IMG/VR virus record: IMGVR_UViG_3300034104_006939
Coordinates: 1-21,607 of that record
DNA length: 21,607 bases
Source: a virus
Strand: one strand, 5' to 3'
The position numbers and the translations under genes were made by a program. Positions 8,729 through 20,786 of the stretch are shown here, in pieces (position 1 is the first letter of the stretch; each line of letters starts with the position of its first letter). Under the pieces are notes generated by a model. It worked only from the letters and a program-made list of their open reading frames with translations, was not told the DNA's origin and did no database searches.

Positions 8729-8736
8729 TATTTATG
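8729..8736 (-). promoter_or_regulatory. Late promoter CATAAATA of the tail tube gene
   Basis: On the minus strand CATAAATA (7 of 8 bases of TATAAATA) lies in the 25-base gap after the sheath gene. It is 5 bases before the ATG at 8723, predicting a leaderless transcript. Confidence 0.6.
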
Positions 8737-11375: not shown

Positions 11376-11383
11376 TATTTATA
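11376..11383 (-). promoter_or_regulatory. T4-type late promoter TATAAATA of the sheath gene
   Basis: A perfect TATAAATA octamer on the minus strand is separated from the ATG at 11367 by 8 bases. T4 late transcription starts about 6 bases after the octamer, so the leader would be only 2-3 bases. No Shine-Dalgarno sequence lies in between. Confidence 0.8.
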
Positions 11384-12000: not shown

Positions 12001-13257
12001 TTATTCAATTGATGTTGTTTCTTTTGTATCCGCCCATTTCTTAGGCAAAAGAAAATTAGCCCTACTAAATTCTAATCGGTCTACAAACTTCACACCATTC
12101 TGATCTTGATCAAAAGCAACATAACCTTCCGGATTTGTTACTTTAATGTCGCCATTAGGCATTACTAAAAAGGTGCCCATAGCTGCACCTTGTAATATAG
12201 AATTATATTTTTGTATAAAAATATCTTTAATTTGTTTGACGTCTCTAATAAAATTAAATAAATGCAAAATAGTATCAGCATTCTTATCTAAGAGTTGCAG
12301 CGTTTGATTTTTTAAAGCAATTTTCGGTTCCTTTCGCTTCACTGATTCGATGTCTTTATCTAATCGCGCAGTCAACCATTGAATAAAATCATTTAATGAA
12401 TAACGAAGATCAGATAAAAACTCTCCTTCTTTGATTTTTGAATTCAAAAATATATTAATATAATCAGAAATTTTGTTTTCGAGGTAGGAAAAATTTATCA
12501 AATTAATATGTGATTCGGCGTTCTGTATTGTTCTTCGAATAAAATTTGTTTCTTCTTCTGTTAAGCTTATAGTACCTGCTTTATTATCGAATAAAGCATC
12601 TATAATATAGGCAGAACTAGATTTCAAATGTTCAACAGACACACCAAATTTTTTATTAACAAATCGTTGTTTGCCTTCTTCATCTATACTGGGGTCATAT
12701 TTTGTATGAAATGCTACGCCTATCTTGTAATTAGATATTTGTTTTGCTTCTGCAGAATCAATTGGGAATGTATAAAGGATAGTATTTGGTCTAAATCCAA
12801 TATACTCCTTACCTGAAATTACATATTTTTGAATAAGACCGGGCCAAAAAAGGAGATCACCTTGGTAAACACCATCAAAATTTGTTGATTTGAGTGCATT
12901 GAATGCATATATTAATTTATCAATTAACCCAGGTGCCTCATTGTGATTCTTTCTTATATCTGCTACACTATAAGAAAGTTTCGGATCATTACTAAATGCA
13001 CTTTTTGTTGATATAAAAAACTTGCCGTATGAGTCTCTACCGCATACGATTGCGGGCGCGCCATCAATTTTTACTGTCATGTTAATCTTTCTATCTGTAT
13101 TACTTTTTAACATATCCAATAAAACAGAAATATATTGCAATGTTTTAATTGCTCCTTCTTTTCCCTTCTTTAAAACTAATTCATCTAGATGAGTCAAATG
13201 CTTATTTGTGGTATCAGCATTCTCCATTAAAATAAAATAATCTTTAAAGCTTCTCAT
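12001..13257 (-). CDS. Ligase-like covalent nucleotidyltransferase with capsid-targeting-like N-terminus (putative)
   Basis: I take the ATG at 13257 as start (418 residues), because a GATAAATA late box lies 5 bases upstream and the N-terminus MRSFKDYFILME then parallels the T4 capsid-targeting sequence; an in-frame ATG at 13287 lies inside the terminase gene. Motifs of the DNA/RNA ligase and capping-enzyme superfamily follow in order: VKIDGAP (63-68, Lys63 the candidate nucleotide-binding lysine, KxDG), FDGVYQGDLLF (about 127-137, motif III-like), GFRPNTILYTFPID (about 153-167), then after a helical insert of nearly 200 residues PEGYVAFD (376-383, motif IV-like EG) and VKFVDR (389-394, motif V-like). 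The family would form a Lys-NMP intermediate and join or adenylylate nucleic acid ends. The substrate cannot be told. It follows the terminase with almost no gap. Confidence 0.65.
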   Translation of the reverse strand: MRSFKDYFILMENADTTNKHLTHLDELVLKKGKEGAIKTLQYISVLLDMLKSNTDRKINMTVKIDGAPAIVCGRDSYGKFFISTKSAFSNDPKLSYSVADIRKNHNEAPGLIDKLIYAFNALKSTNFDGVYQGDLLFWPGLIQKYVISGKEYIGFRPNTILYTFPIDSAEAKQISNYKIGVAFHTKYDPSIDEEGKQRFVNKKFGVSVEHLKSSSAYIIDALFDNKAGTISLTEEETNFIRRTIQNAESHINLINFSYLENKISDYINIFLNSKIKEGEFLSDLRYSLNDFIQWLTARLDKDIESVKRKEPKIALKNQTLQLLDKNADTILHLFNFIRDVKQIKDIFIQKYNSILQGAAMGTFLVMPNGDIKVTNPEGYVAFDQDQNGVKFVDRLEFSRANFLLPKKWADTKETTSIE

Positions 13258-13262
13258 GCTTC

Positions 13263-13270
13263 TATTTATC
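13263..13270 (-). promoter_or_regulatory. Late-promoter-like GATAAATA at the terminase stop / nucleotidyltransferase start
   Basis: On the minus strand GATAAATA (7 of 8 bases) begins inside the terminase stop codon (TGATAAATA) and ends 5 bases before the ATG at 13257. It supports that start over the upstream in-frame ATG at 13287. Confidence 0.5.
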
Positions 13271-14948
13271 ATTGCAGAGGTTTCCATCCAGATTGCATCA
13301 TATCATTTAAATCGTTATCAATATACATCTGATTACCAAACATGGTCGGTATTACATTATAGACACCACTGTCATTTTCATTCATATAAAATGAATTTGG
13401 ATTCTTTGTAGCACCCACACCCCAATCATAAGGTCTGATAGATGCTGGTTTGTTATTTTCATCTGTTGCTATCACCTCAAAATATTTCGAAATCAATTTT
13501 TCATGCAATATTAACAAAGCCCATCCTAATGACATCACTCTATCATCATGTTTGTCTTGTTTTGCCTTCCATGTTCCATTGGGCAAACGAACAAAATCTC
13601 TAAGCTCTTCTACCGTCTGCAAATCATTTATACGTACAGCATCAATAGTGTTAATCCAATATCTTTGATTAGTAACATTATCATATTTTGTATTTGTGTG
13701 GCAAACAACACCCAATGGCACTGTACTGCGATTTAATTCTTTGAATCCATATGATATTATATTTTCATAGAGATAATCTTTTCGTAAGTTATCAACTACC
13801 TGTGCACCGCATTTGTCTCTTTCAACTAGTAATAAAGGCGATCCCCATTGTTGCAATATCTCATGTAATTTACTAGTAAACTCAATAGGAGATATGGTAT
13901 TTGAGGTGTATACTGCGACCTGATTAATAGCTCTCAAATTTGTTAAATCAAGAATTTGAACCACTGTATTATCTTTGCCCACACCTTCAGCTACATCCAC
14001 ACCAGCAACATAAAGTTTTCCTTCTTTTGGCAGCTCCCATATTTTATAGGAGCCTTCCATATATACATATTCGGGTGACGACGCTTTAGTTCTTAAAGAA
14101 TCAAAGGTCGATGCATTAATTGATGATTCGCCCACTTCATCAAAAATACATTCAAATTCTCTTAAGAAATCTTCTGGTGATGCCAATGAACCTATTGTTT
14201 CTTTCTTCCATTTTTCATCACGACCAGGTACATCATACCATGGCACTTTCATATTCACCCAACTATTTTCATTTTTTACTGAGCCGTCATATAATTTAAA
14301 AAACAGCCCAGACGTATCTCTGGGCGTAGATGCCATAATAATTTTAGATTTTTTAGAATTTGAAATAATAGGATATACAGAAGCCCAAAAACTTTCTAAT
14401 AAATGCGGTTCAATCCAATCCGCTTCGTCGACAAATAATAAATTAGCAGAGCTACCGCGGCCTGCTGATCCCGTTGTTGTAGTAATGCCTATGCGAGATC
14501 CATTAGCTAGCTCCATAGACTCTTTACCATATTCTTTCACCCCCGGCTTAAGCCAATTAGGCAATTCTTCATACGCTAATCGTATTCTCTTAAAAATTTC
14601 TTTCGCAGTACTTTCTTTGTTTGCAACAATCAGAATATTTTGATGCTCATTAAAACAAGCCGTCCATAAACAATAGATAGTAGAGATAGTACTTTTACCA
14701 CTTTGTCTAGCAAATAATAACAATGAAAAGCGATTATCTCTCATCATGCGCAATGATTTTTTTTGATATGTATGAAGTGGTATTTTTATTTTTTCTCCAT
14801 CTGTGATTATATAAAAATAATTTTCTGCAAAATGTAAGATATTATCTTGGCATTTTTTAATTTCTTTAATCTCTTCAATGCCATAATCAAACTGTGCGTC
14901 GACAGTCGGCAAATTGGGATTATTCAAATAGACTTTTTGTCTTGCCAT
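13269..14948 (-). CDS. terL: Large terminase subunit, T4 gp17-like
   Basis: The start at 14948 (MARQKVYLNN) gives 559 residues; a further 24-residue in-frame extension upstream reads into the divergent gene and is unlikely. The N-terminal ATPase shows Walker A ARQSGKST (about 80-87), Walker B LLFVDEAD (170-177) and coupling motif ASTP (206-209). The C-terminal RNase H-fold nuclease shows GVDVAEG (Asp318), LLVERD (Glu376) and KHDDR (Asp468/469), the acidic residues that bind metal. Together they package concatemeric DNA into the prohead and cut it. The protein is shorter than T4 gp17 (610). No small terminase gene is evident beside it. It starts 18 bases from the divergent gene at 14967, and its stop overlaps a late-promoter-like box for the next gene. 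Confidence 0.95.
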   Translation of the reverse strand: MARQKVYLNNPNLPTVDAQFDYGIEEIKEIKKCQDNILHFAENYFYIITDGEKIKIPLHTYQKKSLRMMRDNRFSLLLFARQSGKSTISTIYCLWTACFNEHQNILIVANKESTAKEIFKRIRLAYEELPNWLKPGVKEYGKESMELANGSRIGITTTTGSAGRGSSANLLFVDEADWIEPHLLESFWASVYPIISNSKKSKIIMASTPRDTSGLFFKLYDGSVKNENSWVNMKVPWYDVPGRDEKWKKETIGSLASPEDFLREFECIFDEVGESSINASTFDSLRTKASSPEYVYMEGSYKIWELPKEGKLYVAGVDVAEGVGKDNTVVQILDLTNLRAINQVAVYTSNTISPIEFTSKLHEILQQWGSPLLLVERDKCGAQVVDNLRKDYLYENIISYGFKELNRSTVPLGVVCHTNTKYDNVTNQRYWINTIDAVRINDLQTVEELRDFVRLPNGTWKAKQDKHDDRVMSLGWALLILHEKLISKYFEVIATDENNKPASIRPYDWGVGATKNPNSFYMNENDSGVYNVIPTMFGNQMYIDNDLNDMMQSGWKPLQ

Positions 14949-14949
14949 G

Positions 14950-14957
14950 TATAAATA
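14950..14957 (+). promoter_or_regulatory. T4-type late promoter TATAAATA, distal start of the acidic protein
   Basis: A perfect octamer lies in the 18-base gap between two divergent start codons and ends 9 bases before the ATG at 14967. It faces away from the terminase. Confidence 0.75.
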
Positions 14958-14966
14958 GTTACCTAT

Positions 14967-15704
14967 ATGAACAAAAATGACACACCGACATTTCAGAAAG
15001 CCTCTGATAAGAAAATTCATCCATATATGACACCACCGACAGTTGCGGGTAAAAAAGGAGTAGCATCTATGGGAGTGCCAACACCAAAAGAAACTGATCT
15101 CTCAAAAAGAGAAGAAAGTTGCGACTCTTGTGAAAAAGTAGCAAAAGAAAGTATAAATACAAACAATATGAGTAAGTTTTTATTCGACAGACTATTTGAA
15201 GATGTAATGTCCGGTTCTGAATTTGGCGGCGGTGATGACGCTGCTGATTTGGGTATTGATGTTGGTGATGATATGGGCGGTGAAGATGTTGGTGGTGACC
15301 AAGTCACTATTACCCTCGACCGAGCAACCGCCGAGAAGCTTATTGGCCTTATCCAAGGAGCTATGGGTGGCGTTAGTGAAGAAGGTGAAGAAGAAGGTGA
15401 AGAAGAAGGTGAATTAGATGGCGAAGGCGGGGAAGAAGGAGAAGAAGAAGGTGAAGGCGCGATGGGTGAATCTATTGAAGTAGTAGCCGAACCAAAGCCA
15501 TTTGGAGCAAAGCCCGAAACACTTCAAAAACGAGACAATAAGGTTTCATCTAAGTATAAAGCAGCTGGTGGAAAAGCGCACACTGGCAGTGTTGCACCGC
15601 TTCAAGCCGAACCAAAACCACTCGGTGCTAAAGCTGATACCCTTCAAAGCAAAAGCAATAAAGTAGCTGGATTTAGTACAGCAGGAACAATCTTCGGTTC
15701 TTAA
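14967..15704 (+). CDS. Acidic repeat protein with two in-frame starts; prohead-core candidate
   Basis: The long form has 245 residues; a second in-frame ATG at 15168 would give 178. Each ATG has its own perfect TATAAATA late promoter 8-9 bases upstream. The 67-residue extension is basic/polar with a CDSC pair. The short form begins MSKFLFDRLFEDVMSG, an amphipathic aromatic segment containing LFE, like a prohead-protease (LxE) site. A Gly/Asp-rich part and a helix (VTITLDRATAEKLIGLIQGA) follow, then a long Glu/Gly run (about residues 137-165 of the long form). The end carries two 40-residue-spaced copies of EPKPxGAKxxTLQ. T4 gp67, a prohead core protein, is likewise short and very acidic, so a scaffold or internal head role is plausible, but no homology is shown. 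A strong terminator follows the stop. Confidence 0.85.
   Translation: MNKNDTPTFQKASDKKIHPYMTPPTVAGKKGVASMGVPTPKETDLSKREESCDSCEKVAKESINTNNMSKFLFDRLFEDVMSGSEFGGGDDAADLGIDVGDDMGGEDVGGDQVTITLDRATAEKLIGLIQGAMGGVSEEGEEEGEEEGELDGEGGEEGEEEGEGAMGESIEVVAEPKPFGAKPETLQKRDNKVSSKYKAAGGKAHTGSVAPLQAEPKPLGAKADTLQSKSNKVAGFSTAGTIFGS
15152..15159 (+). promoter_or_regulatory. Internal T4-type late promoter TATAAATA for the short form
   Basis: A perfect octamer inside the coding region ends 8 bases before the in-frame ATG at 15168 (AAACAATATGAG). The spacing matches that of the sheath promoter, which argues that this internal start is used. Confidence 0.75.
15378..15462 (+). repeat. GAA/GGT-rich low-complexity tract coding Glu-Gly
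   Basis: Repeated GAAGAAGGT-type units encode a run of Glu and Gly with one Leu-Asp interruption. The tract is purine-rich on the plus strand and likely variable in length by slippage; changes in multiples of three would keep frame. Confidence 0.75.
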
Positions 15705-15767: not shown

Positions 15768-15775
15768 CATAAATA
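15768..15775 (+). promoter_or_regulatory. Late promoter CATAAATA of the 15781 operon
   Basis: CATAAATA (7 of 8 bases) follows the terminator and ends 5 bases before the ATG at 15781, predicting leaderless transcription of this gene and probably of the two genes behind it. Confidence 0.65.
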
Positions 15776-15780
15776 ATAAT

Positions 15781-16128
15781 ATGTTTCCTACTTTTAAGGA
15801 ATTCTTTTTTGAAAATAGAAAAGGCGAACGCAATCCTTTTCATACAAATGCATTTGCCGGTTTTGATGGCACAAAACCAAATATGACATATGCAGTAAAC
15901 AAAAGCGAAAATGAATTTGAAGAGGCTTTAAAAAATTTACGTTCAGGAGCAGCATCGTTCTTAGTTGTTACTCCTTTGTTTAAAAACTATCTTATAAAAA
16001 AATATCCTCAGCATAATTTCCCCACACAGGAAGGTGAAAAAGTGGCCTTAGGCAGATCGGGTTATTCAACAAATCAAATTTTTTTGTCAATGAATAATAC
16101 AGGTCAGTTTGTATTGACTAACAAATAA
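15781..16128 (+). CDS. Small protein with capsid-targeting-like N-terminus (candidate internal head protein)
   Basis: The 115-residue protein begins MFPTFKEFFFENRKG. The TFKEFxxxE segment matches the layout of the T4 internal-protein targeting sequence (MKTYQEFIAE), with F-F-E where T4 has I-A-E before the cleavage. The remainder is a small mixed alpha/beta protein with a helix (NEFEEALKNLRSGAASFLVV) and a C-terminal strand (FLSMNNTGQFVLTNK). Its size is close to T4 internal proteins IPI-IPIII. It has its own late promoter and shares an operon with the neck gene, which starts 1 base after its stop. The family is unknown to me; the packaged-protein idea is inference from the N-terminus and late expression. 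Confidence 0.8.
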   Translation: MFPTFKEFFFENRKGERNPFHTNAFAGFDGTKPNMTYAVNKSENEFEEALKNLRSGAASFLVVTPLFKNYLIKKYPQHNFPTQEGEKVALGRSGYSTNQIFLSMNNTGQFVLTNK

Positions 16129-19568: not shown

Positions 19569-19977
19569 TTTCTTTATAAATAATGTTAAAGGCTTCTGAT
19601 TTTTCTAATTTTACGGGTTCTGTTTGAAGAAATGTTTTGACATCGACATCAACACGAACATTTTTATTACAGTCCAGACACTTATATGAATTGTCTTCAT
19701 TTAATCTGATAGGAATAAAATTATCAATTGCTTTATCACAAGGGCACTTTACATTACAACCTTGCTTAGAATATTCTCTGAGAATATCAATTTGATTTTT
19801 TTCGTTTATAACATTTAAAATAGTATTCCAAATATTATAAAAAATAATCTGCAACATAGATAGGCAGAATAACCAACCTAAAAATGTTTTTATATCGTTA
19901 GCGAATAAAAAGGATATCGTGCCAGATATTAATAAAAGAACAATTACACCACGCAACATTCTTATATAATATTTCAA
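19552..19977 (-). CDS. Two-pass membrane protein with a Cys cluster (possible zinc ribbon)
   Basis: Two hydrophobic segments lie at about residues 10-27 (GVIVLLLISGTISFLFAN) and 32-53 (FLGWLFCLSMLQIIFYNIW). They are followed by a soluble tail with CNVKCPC (Cys74, 78, 80) and CLDC (Cys100, 103), a spacing compatible with a zinc-ribbon-like knuckle. The predicted topology leaves the Cys-rich tail on one side of the host membrane. The frame begins with TTG at 19977, overlapping the previous stop by four bases (TTGA); an ATG at 19959 would shorten the protein by six residues. Neither has a strong Shine-Dalgarno. The family is unknown. A role at the host membrane or in superinfection exclusion is possible but not supported by any motif. 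Confidence 0.7.
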   Translation of the reverse strand: MKYYIRMLRGVIVLLLISGTISFLFANDIKTFLGWLFCLSMLQIIFYNIWNTILNVINEKNQIDILREYSKQGCNVKCPCDKAIDNFIPIRLNEDNSYKCLDCNKNVRVDVDVKTFLQTEPVKLEKSEAFNIIYKENGDAV

Positions 19978-20348
19978 AATGATAATTTGTCAAGATACTT
20001 TATAATATCTTGTGCGAATATAGCATTAATTTTATTGATGCGCTCGATTAATTTTTGTGCGACTACTTTTTTTGATTCAGAAGCAGTATCTGAATTACTA
20101 TAATCACTTACTTTGTCAGATAGTGTTTTCAATTCTACAATATAATTTGCTATTTGCGGAATAATCACTGATGATTGGAATTGATGTGGTAATATTTTAG
20201 GTGTGCCTTCTACAGAGGGGATTTGCGTTTTTAAATCGGTGAGAGAGGAATCAGATGCATCAGGACCGATACCTGTTACATTACGATTAGCATCGGCAAT
20301 AGTACTATCTTCATTAAAAAAACGTCTTCTCACAAAATTATTTACCAT
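19974..20348 (-). CDS. Unknown protein (124 residues), head of a four-gene cassette
   Basis: The N-terminus MVNNFVRRRFFNEDSTIAD is aromatic and basic, ending in F-N-E, loosely like the capsid-targeting-like segments of other proteins here. Residues 20-60 are disordered (Asp/Ser/Thr/Pro). The C-terminal half is helical (QIANYIVELKTLSDKVSDYS and KLIERINKINAIFAQDIIKY), possibly a coiled coil. No late box is seen on this strand before the ATG, which is 18 bases from a divergent late gene. The next gene begins inside its stop. I do not recognise the family. Confidence 0.7.
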   Translation of the reverse strand: MVNNFVRRRFFNEDSTIADANRNVTGIGPDASDSSLTDLKTQIPSVEGTPKILPHQFQSSVIIPQIANYIVELKTLSDKVSDYSNSDTASESKKVVAQKLIERINKINAIFAQDIIKYLDKLSF

Positions 20349-20353
20349 TCTTG

Positions 20354-20361
20354 AATAAATA
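20354..20361 (+). promoter_or_regulatory. Late-promoter-like AATAAATA before the 20367 gene
   Basis: AATAAATA (7 of 8 bases) ends 5 bases before the ATG at 20367, inside an 18-base divergent gap. The same gap length and promoter position occur at 14949-14966. Confidence 0.45.
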
Positions 20362-20366
20362 AATGC

Positions 20367-20786
20367 ATGAGTAACTTATTTGAAAGTGCATTTAAAAAGG
20401 TTTTAAATGAAGATGATGGTGTAGAAATTTCAGATTCTGAAGCTATGGCATCAACTTTGGATAAGGGTACTGATGTGTCTGATTTTGATATTGAGGCTAG
20501 TACACAGCAAGCTTCAATTGCTGCAGCTCAAGCCAATGTTGCTATGGTAGAAAGGCTTCATGAATGGATTGGAAAAATATCTGAATTTACAAATTTTTTA
20601 AATGGCCAAGGACCTGATTCTATCCAATCACAACTATCAAAAGCACATGAAAAAAGTTTGTTTGGATCACTAAAGACATCAGAAACAAAAAAGATTGCAT
20701 TAGTTGCACGTGAGTTAGCAGGGTTTAAAGAAATCCTAAATGGTTATATTGCATCTTCTGGTGATCCTAAGTACAAAGGCGTTTAA
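20367..20786 (+). CDS. Small late protein with targeting-like N-terminus; candidate prohead core or internal protein
   Basis: The 139-residue protein begins MSNLFESAFKKVLNEDDGVE, an amphipathic helix ending in L-N-E, which fits the (L/I)-x-E consensus of the T4 prohead protease. An acidic Ser/Asp part (about 15-45) and a helical remainder follow (ASIAAAQANVAMVERLHEWI, KIALVARELAGFKEILNGYI). T4 core protein gp68 is of similar size (141), but no alignment is possible by eye. A late-promoter-like box precedes the gene. Its stop codon shares the bases TTAA with the stop of the convergent primase gene. The assembly role is inferred from N-terminus, acidity and promoter. Confidence 0.75.
   Translation: MSNLFESAFKKVLNEDDGVEISDSEAMASTLDKGTDVSDFDIEASTQQASIAAAQANVAMVERLHEWIGKISEFTNFLNGQGPDSIQSQLSKAHEKSLFGSLKTSETKKIALVARELAGFKEILNGYIASSGDPKYKGV

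Follow-up and report, generated by a model that had tools for sequence, protein, structure and literature searches.

A DUF6267 protein encoded among T4-like phage late genes is a predicted RNA-ligase-type nucleotidyltransferase with a putative capsid-targeting peptide

The proteins IPI, IPII, IPIII and Alt of bacteriophage T4 are targeted to the capsid, processed by the prohead protease and injected. T4 makes its RNA ligase after infection and, to our knowledge, its RNA ligases are not packaged in the virion. The locus described here raises the question of whether a ligase-like enzyme may nevertheless travel in the head of a T4-like phage. The window, a viral contig of 21,607 nucleotides (21.6 kb) carrying T4-like late genes (terminase, sheath and tube), has no close relative among phage records, and PADLOC and Rfam searches of it returned nothing. 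An earlier note, made from the sequence alone, had described a possible virion-packaged ligase-like nucleotidyltransferase beside the terminase gene; on rechecking the sequence, the open reading frame, motifs, N-terminal peptide, late box and neighbours were all found where it had placed them (Table 1).

Table 1. Positions of the DUF6267 gene, its predicted motifs and neighbouring features in the window
Feature	Positions	Strand	Evidence or remarks
DUF6267 (PF19782, PHROG 455) protein, 418 aa	12001..13257	-	Pfam E 5.2e-81; AlphaFold pLDDT 87.9, pTM 0.85
N-terminal peptide MRSFKDYFILME, predicted prohead-protease cut after E12 (LME/N13)	13222..13257	-	Also in most relatives outside the cyanophages and in neighbouring enzymes; disordered in model; T4 internal proteins
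T4-type late-promoter box ATAAATA, 5 nt before ATG 13257	13263..13269	-	
Motif I, K63-I-D-G66 (predicted nucleotidyl-lysine)	13060..13071	-	K, D, G in 66/66
K85, motif Ia-like lysine	13003..13005	-	66/66; counterpart of T4 Rnl1 K119 by order and spacing
Q132-G-D134, motif III-like, Asp replacing usual Glu	12856..12864	-	66/66; Asp invariant in short forms too
Helical insert, residues 234-355, between motif III region and motif IV	12193..12558	-	Much reduced in ~300-aa cyanophage forms
Motif IV, E377-G-Y-V380	12118..12129	-	E, G, V in 66/66; aligned to T4 Rnl1 E227-G-Y-V
Motif V lysine K390 (V389-K390)	12088..12090	-	66/66; 13 residues past E377, as E227-K240 in T4 Rnl1
Terminase large subunit, upstream neighbour, probable start 14948 (MARQKVYL)	13269..15020	-	Pfam Terminase_6N E 5e-14; tblastn
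115-aa orphan protein, same peptide at start (MFPTFKEFFFEN), own late box 15769-15775	15781..16128	+	

The open reading frame runs on the minus strand from an ATG at 13257 to a stop codon at 12001-12003, and its 418-residue product begins MRSFKDYFILMENADTTNKHLTHLDE..., the N-terminal peptide reading MRSFKDYFILME followed by NADTT. Two further in-frame ATGs lie upstream, at 13287 and 13272. We rejected both as starts, since the two closest relatives (46-47% identity) can start only at the position matching 13257 and the late box sits downstream of both alternative ATGs; for the same reasons MRSFKDYFILME is most likely the real N-terminus. The adjoining gene does encode the large terminase subunit, as had been claimed.

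ATAAATA is the core of the T4-type late promoter. It occurs eight times in the window, against 20 expected by chance, and in seven of the eight cases the gene's own ATG follows 5-9 nt later, namely at the sheath, tube and DUF6267 genes and at four short genes (boxes at 8729-8735, 11376-11382 and 13263-13269 on the minus strand and at 14951-14957, 15153-15159, 15769-15775 and 20355-20361 on the plus strand). The late-promoter-like box previously noted before the gene is thus placed as in the other late genes, and its sequence predicts late expression of the DUF6267 gene together with the sheath and tube genes. With so short a distance to the start codon, the late transcripts may have little or no leader; elsewhere in the window the box is depleted. 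A start reading MSKFLFD, within the open reading frame at 14967, is also preceded by its own late box.

The protein belongs to a widespread family. It scores 273 bits against the Pfam DUF6267 profile (cutoff 27), covers it at full length (positions 1-376 of 376) and is assigned to PHROG 455. By tblastn the family is present in 371 phage records with the window protein as query and in 468 with a relative as query, the best matches being at ~30-43% identity; most of the records are of Synechococcus and Prochlorococcus myophages, and phages of Pelagibacter, Methylophilales, Vibrio, Stenotrophomonas and Pseudoalteromonas are also represented. The proteins are usually annotated as hypothetical, the S-PM2 record labels its copy T4-like gene cluster 71, and the literature searched does not mention DUF6267. 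A testable function is offered here for this family, whose >400 phage records come for the most part from marine myoviruses that are abundant. Short forms of ~300 residues in cyanophages (L176-L213; L175 10655-11635) have lost most of a helical insert, keep all the motifs and lack the targeting peptide, and cyanophage DUF6267 genes adjoin replication genes. A 188-kb contig (NZ_RMVE01000006.1, L274) of the isolate assembly of the flavobacterium Nonlabens xiamenensis holds DUF6267, a tagged nucleotidyltransferase, RecA and a helicase of cyanophage type, and is probably a phage genome within that assembly.

What chemistry might such a protein perform? Across an alignment of 66 homologues (33-46% identical to the window protein), K63, D65, G66, K85, Q132, G133, D134, F155, N158, T159, H184, T185, E377, G378, V380, K390 and R394 are invariant. 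The order of motifs I (KxDG), Ia (K), III-like (GD), IV (EGxV) and V (K) is that of covalent nucleotidyltransferases, as the earlier note had read it, and the superfamily motifs I, IV and V follow one another, conserved, in all 66. By position, and as checked in the sequence, the counterparts in T4 Rnl1 are K99, K119, E159, E227 and K240, its residues of motifs I, Ia, III, IV and V; at the place matching the motif III glutamate E159, the family has the invariant Asp134. In HHalign comparisons with 15 profiles T4 Rnl1 was best (E 0.03 over the full length, 0.0045 when only the C-terminal part was used), and VTNPEGYVAFDQDQNGVKF was paired with a T4 Rnl1 segment such that motifs IV and V each fell on their counterparts at an identical spacing of 13 residues. 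Deleting the insert made the ligase match no better beyond this motif IV-V segment. PDB sequence searches with the single protein and with the 66-row profile matched nothing relevant, and in the Pfam search the window protein significantly matched no ligase family, that of T4 Rnl1 (PF09511) included.

Structure prediction followed by fold comparison, as previously proposed, placed ligases at the head of the list with two models, although the best E value was 7e-3 and the TM-scores were low. The AlphaFold model of the long form, that of the window (pLDDT 87.9, pTM 0.85), is disordered only in residues 1-16 (pLDDT < 50) and at the extreme C-terminus. A helical insert does separate motifs III and IV, but at ~120 residues (234-355), within a spacing of 243, it is smaller than the ~200 residues originally estimated. 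In a Foldseek search of the PDB with this model, T4 Rnl1 came first and ~17 of the first 50 matches were ligases, none of them significant. The model of a cyanophage short form (~300 aa, pLDDT 91.2) gave nucleic-acid ligases as its first eight matches, led by T4 Rnl2 (E 7.4e-3, prob 0.75). All of these PDB matches lie above E 1e-3, with reported TM-scores of at most 0.27. Among BFVD models, each match with E<1e-3 was either a DUF6267-like protein or a fusion with a cytidyltransferase; past these, the first match bearing a name was a phage RNA ligase (E 5.9e-3, prob 0.85), and further ligases came after it. Past the motif V lysine K390 there are only 28 residues, in short helices, and thus no OB domain; for this reason the layout is RNA-ligase-like rather than that of a DNA ligase or a capping enzyme. 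We rejected DNA ligase and mRNA capping enzyme identities because the OB domain (motif VI) that should follow motif V is missing. Together, the invariant motifs, the top rank of ligases with both models and the alignment to Rnl1 over motifs IV-V support the nucleotidyltransferase class put forward in the earlier note, with no PDB match individually significant. They make a strong but not conclusive case that the window protein is an RNA-ligase-type covalent nucleotidyltransferase; we stop short of a conclusive assignment because of the low TM-scores. Ligation is the likeliest chemistry of the DUF6267 protein, not a proven one.

The second part of the question, whether the protein enters the head, turns on its first 12 residues. 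A parallel with the T4 peptide MKTYQEFIAE had been drawn, and IPII and IPIII indeed read exactly so, with MKTFKEF in IPI; MRSFKDYFILME is an N-terminus of the MxxFxxFxxE kind ending at (L/I)xE, two residues longer than the T4 form. In T4, a capsid-targeting sequence of ~10 residues loads foreign proteins, after which the prohead protease cleaves it off (PMC9958956, PMC10229621). Relatives of the window protein open with MYSFKQYLNEAKNTHLEH, MKFTEYLTEGK... or MQSFKQYLSE..., and its own clade with FKxYF...LxE. An MxxFxxYLxE tag begins most DUF6267 relatives outside the cyanophages, most of 27 further genome-collection matches keep the peptide, and in 62 of 76 relatives an aliphatic-x-E site stands directly before a conserved NxHLxH; several DUF6267 proteins are untagged or show the aromatic residues of the tag with LxE missing. 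Isolates whose DUF6267 is tagged include Methylophilales phage Melnitz and Stenotrophomonas phage DLP6, and the form in Pelagibacter phage HTVC008M is shorter (MYNDLLVED). Where another domain is fused N-terminally, the LxE site is kept at the joint (ELLTEAKANTHL, EIITETKANTHL and EMLSEVKANTHL). The strict motif opens 75 of 939 genes in 80 contigs and the window (3.75 +/- 1.9 with shuffled sequences), against 11 of 4483 internal Met positions, counts that are non-independent across related contigs and were made with a motif expression fixed after DUF6267 and some S-CREM2 N-termini had been seen. Judged from these sequences, the recurrence is not due to chance, and the peptide, disordered in the model, is conserved where fold and catalysis have no need of it.

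The tag is shared with unrelated neighbouring enzymes. Among the other tagged genes are those for an adenylate kinase, a DNA methylase, a HAD nucleotidase (NT5C), a P-loop kinase (AAA_33/Zeta) and a HIGH-type nucleotidyltransferase (PF01467), joined under a looser form of the motif by a Pol-beta nucleotidyltransferase. A conserved protein of ~105 residues encoded near the terminase bears a T4-like tag (MKSFKSFLSESVNISGDFNGNLY / MKTFKQFMSESVNISGDFNGNLY; L095 24311-24628, which is S-SZBM1_191, and L246 39215-39535) and is undetected in virions. In S-CRM01 (L173 7221-11799), an untagged DUF6267 gene adjoins a run of tagged genes including a serine/threonine kinase (MISFDQFLSEKK); a protein kinase has been reported in S-CRM01 virions, as cited in PMC10665884.

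Published cyanophage proteomes allow the tag to be compared with virion content. Mass spectrometry found gp6, gp12, gp13, gp14, gp136 and gp154 in S-CREM2 virions (PMC10665884). Five of these are tagged at the annotated start: gp6 (MKDFDSFLEE), gp13 (MKDLHSFLTE), gp136 (MQTFSMFFSE), the kinase gp14 (VKRFDAFLTE) and the nucleotidyltransferase gp154 (MKNFSSFLTE); in gp12 the peptide lies slightly inside the annotated start. The nucleotidyltransferase is also a virion protein of S-SM1 (PMC3037559), S-SZBM1 (PMC9146016) and S-SCSM1 (PMC9602691), with the tags MKKFSAFLNEA, MRFRQFIIEA and MKSFLQFLKEA, respectively. In S-CREM2, the products of five of the six motif genes were detected, compared with 45 of the 211 remaining genes (p 0.003), a partly circular comparison, as the motif was chosen with some S-CREM2 N-termini in view. 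Pooling three proteomes (S-SCSM1 in part) gave 7/11 against 113/577 (Fisher p 0.002); taken singly, S-SZBM1 and S-SCSM1 are cleaner but small tests, and neither showed a significant association. The small tagged proteins S-SZBM1_191, S-SZBM1_192 and a 106-aa protein of S-SCSM1 went undetected in virions. The S-CREM2 protein gp156 (L088 10013-10726), a homologue of the Pol-beta nucleotidyltransferase, was a detected virion protein with six peptides.

No tagged DUF6267 protein was found in any virion proteome located. The untagged proteins S-SZBM1_141 (MAKNTHLEH) and S-CREM2 gp87 (a homologue found by profile only) are absent from the virion proteomes of their phages, and in S-SCSM1 DUF6267 is not among the virion proteins beside the nucleotidyltransferase. 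Packaging is therefore not a property of the whole family, and the absence of the untagged forms fits with the tag being required. The virion packaging proposed earlier is thus supported, indirectly but strongly, as regards targeting, through the peptide shared with tagged proteins in S-CREM2, S-SM1, S-SZBM1 and S-SCSM1 virions, and does not extend to untagged DUF6267; by inference from sequence and proteome comparison, capsid targeting of the window protein is well supported. The authors of the published proteomes allow for carry-over of abundant enzymes, and whether the enzymes repeatedly found in cyanophage virions are cargo or contamination has been undecided; the shared tag argues for cargo, and an N-terminal MxxFxxFLxE suggests a simple rule for predicting head-carried phage enzymes.

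The genes around DUF6267 in relatives bear on its possible substrate. The partner most often adjacent or fused to it is the HIGH-type, NMNAT/cytidylyltransferase-like nucleotidyltransferase, with fusions in 11 of 80 contigs and in both orders; a PDB phmmer search with this partner did not distinguish NMNAT from cytidylyltransferase. On one relative contig (L031), the genes for DUF6267, the P-loop kinase and the HAD protein form an uninterrupted run in which each is tagged, and in the closest relatives a Pol-beta nucleotidyltransferase is nearby (L007 5748-6692, L008 307-1197). The HAD family matches 5'-nucleotidases and the kinase Zeta/AAA_33, neither being specifically polynucleotide kinase-phosphatase. 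No kinase, HAD, Pol-beta or HIGH-type partner gene lies within the 21.6-kb window. DUF6267 is also fused behind a HIGH-type nucleotidyltransferase and a SET domain (L053 1325-4138), or behind a HIGH-type nucleotidyltransferase with a HAD-like DFDDT segment between them (L041 4104-7235). The original S-PM2 record has DUF6267 and the cytidyltransferase as two ORFs (gene clusters 71 and 190) and the deletion-mutant genome one 591-aa fusion (L004 7995-9774, L170 2995-4770); a difference in sequencing or frame seems to account for the split.

We propose that the window protein is a late-expressed, tag-packaged, cleaved and injected RNA-ligase-type enzyme that seals broken RNA or nicked nucleic acid, an explanation to which we give slightly better than an even chance. 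The gene would be transcribed late, from its T4-type promoter, along with the structural genes; the first 12 residues would serve as a capsid-targeting peptide and carry the protein into the prohead core; and the prohead protease would cut after LME, the protein starting at Asn13 being retained in the head. Ejected with the phage DNA, the mature protein would have Lys63 loaded with a nucleotide, most likely AMP, and would seal what is most likely its substrate early in infection, broken RNA (for example a cut tRNA) or nicked nucleic acid. Packaged with it, as end-processing partners, would be a P-loop kinase, a HAD phosphatase and two nucleotidyltransferases, one HIGH-type and one Pol-beta. 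We infer packaging, cleavage and injection from the tag and the published proteomes, the AMP chemistry from the motifs and the fold ranking, and the substrate from the layout and the neighbours in relatives; the partners would likewise be expected in the window phage, of which the window is a fragment.

A packaged covalent nucleotidyltransferase might instead modify a host protein, or serve NAD metabolism or NAD-dependent adenylylation with its NMNAT-like partner. That partner is, after all, the one most often adjacent to DUF6267 or fused on either side of it, and myophages are known to have NAD-centred conflict systems and effectors packaged in the virion (PMC9503650). We nevertheless think this unlikely: the top-ranked structural matches are to nucleic-acid ligases, motifs IV-V align with those of T4 Rnl1, and end repair suits the kinase, phosphatase and Pol-beta neighbours. 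It is quite doubtful, too, that the enzyme stays unpackaged and acts late in the producing cell, its peptide being vestigial or having another role in assembly: most non-cyanophage relatives, including most of the 27 further matches, keep the peptide, the joints of N-terminal fusions keep its LxE end, and the window gene sits behind a late box within the late structural cluster, even though the cyanophage protein lacks the peptide, goes undetected in S-CREM2 and S-SZBM1 virions and is encoded beside replication genes. The adjacent terminase and tail genes, with Asp in place of Glu at motif III, would suit a catalytically dead scaffold or core protein of the head; with all other catalytic positions invariant in the 66 sequences and in the shortened forms, such a protein is very improbable.

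The packaged, sealing enzyme that we favour has recognizable models, each with clear differences. With T4 Rnl1 (gp63) and Rnl2 (gp24.1), its top structural neighbours, the DUF6267 protein shares the order of motifs I, Ia, III, IV and V, a spacing of 13 from the motif IV Glu to the motif V Lys (as in Rnl1) and helices in place of an OB domain; unlike in those ligases, the helices form an insert ahead of motif IV instead of lying at the C-terminus, motif III has Asp, not Glu, an N-terminal HLxH is conserved, and there is no significant sequence match. IPI, IPII, IPIII and Alt likewise have an N-terminal peptide of ~10 residues resembling MKTYQEFIAE and ending in LxE or IxE before the mature protein, whereas the predicted cargo here is a ligase-like enzyme, and the tag occurs on many enzymes in marine phages. 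The cyanophage virion nucleotidyltransferase (T4-GC 190, 'cytidylyltransferase' or NMNAT) bears the same peptide, is detected in virions and is both neighbour and fusion partner of DUF6267, but its HIGH-superfamily fold is unrelated. Phage RNA-repair suites combine Rnl1 or Rnl2 with kinases (PNK), phosphatases and Pol-beta nucleotidyltransferases (RlaP) (PMC7824862); DUF6267 relatives similarly have kinase, phosphatase and Pol-beta nucleotidyltransferase genes close to that of a ligase-like protein, the difference being that these components are tagged and that the kinase and phosphatase families are not classical PNKP.

If the ligase reading is true, these phages arrive with ready-made repair enzymes, unlike T4. 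A wider proposal, which we advance tentatively and consider possible but short of probable, is that marine T4-like phages inject a capsid-borne end-healing and sealing kit, made up of the RNA-ligase-like DUF6267 protein, a kinase, a phosphatase and the Pol-beta and NMNAT-like nucleotidyltransferases, under a common cleavable tag of the T4 type. Broken tRNA or DNA ends could then be repaired before phage gene expression. We found no description of a tagged repair kit in a virion in the papers searched.

The window itself may hold further head proteins. The 115-aa orphan protein with the same N-terminal peptide (Table 1) is a second candidate for packaging. Short, mostly acidic orphan proteins are encoded at 15168-15704 (+), 20367-20786 (+) and 19974-20348 (-); their N-termini, aromatic or hydrophobic and ending in E or D, read MSKFLFDRLFED, MSNLFESAFKKVLNED and MVNNFVRRRFFNED, and by sequence these could possibly be head-core proteins or further packaged ones.
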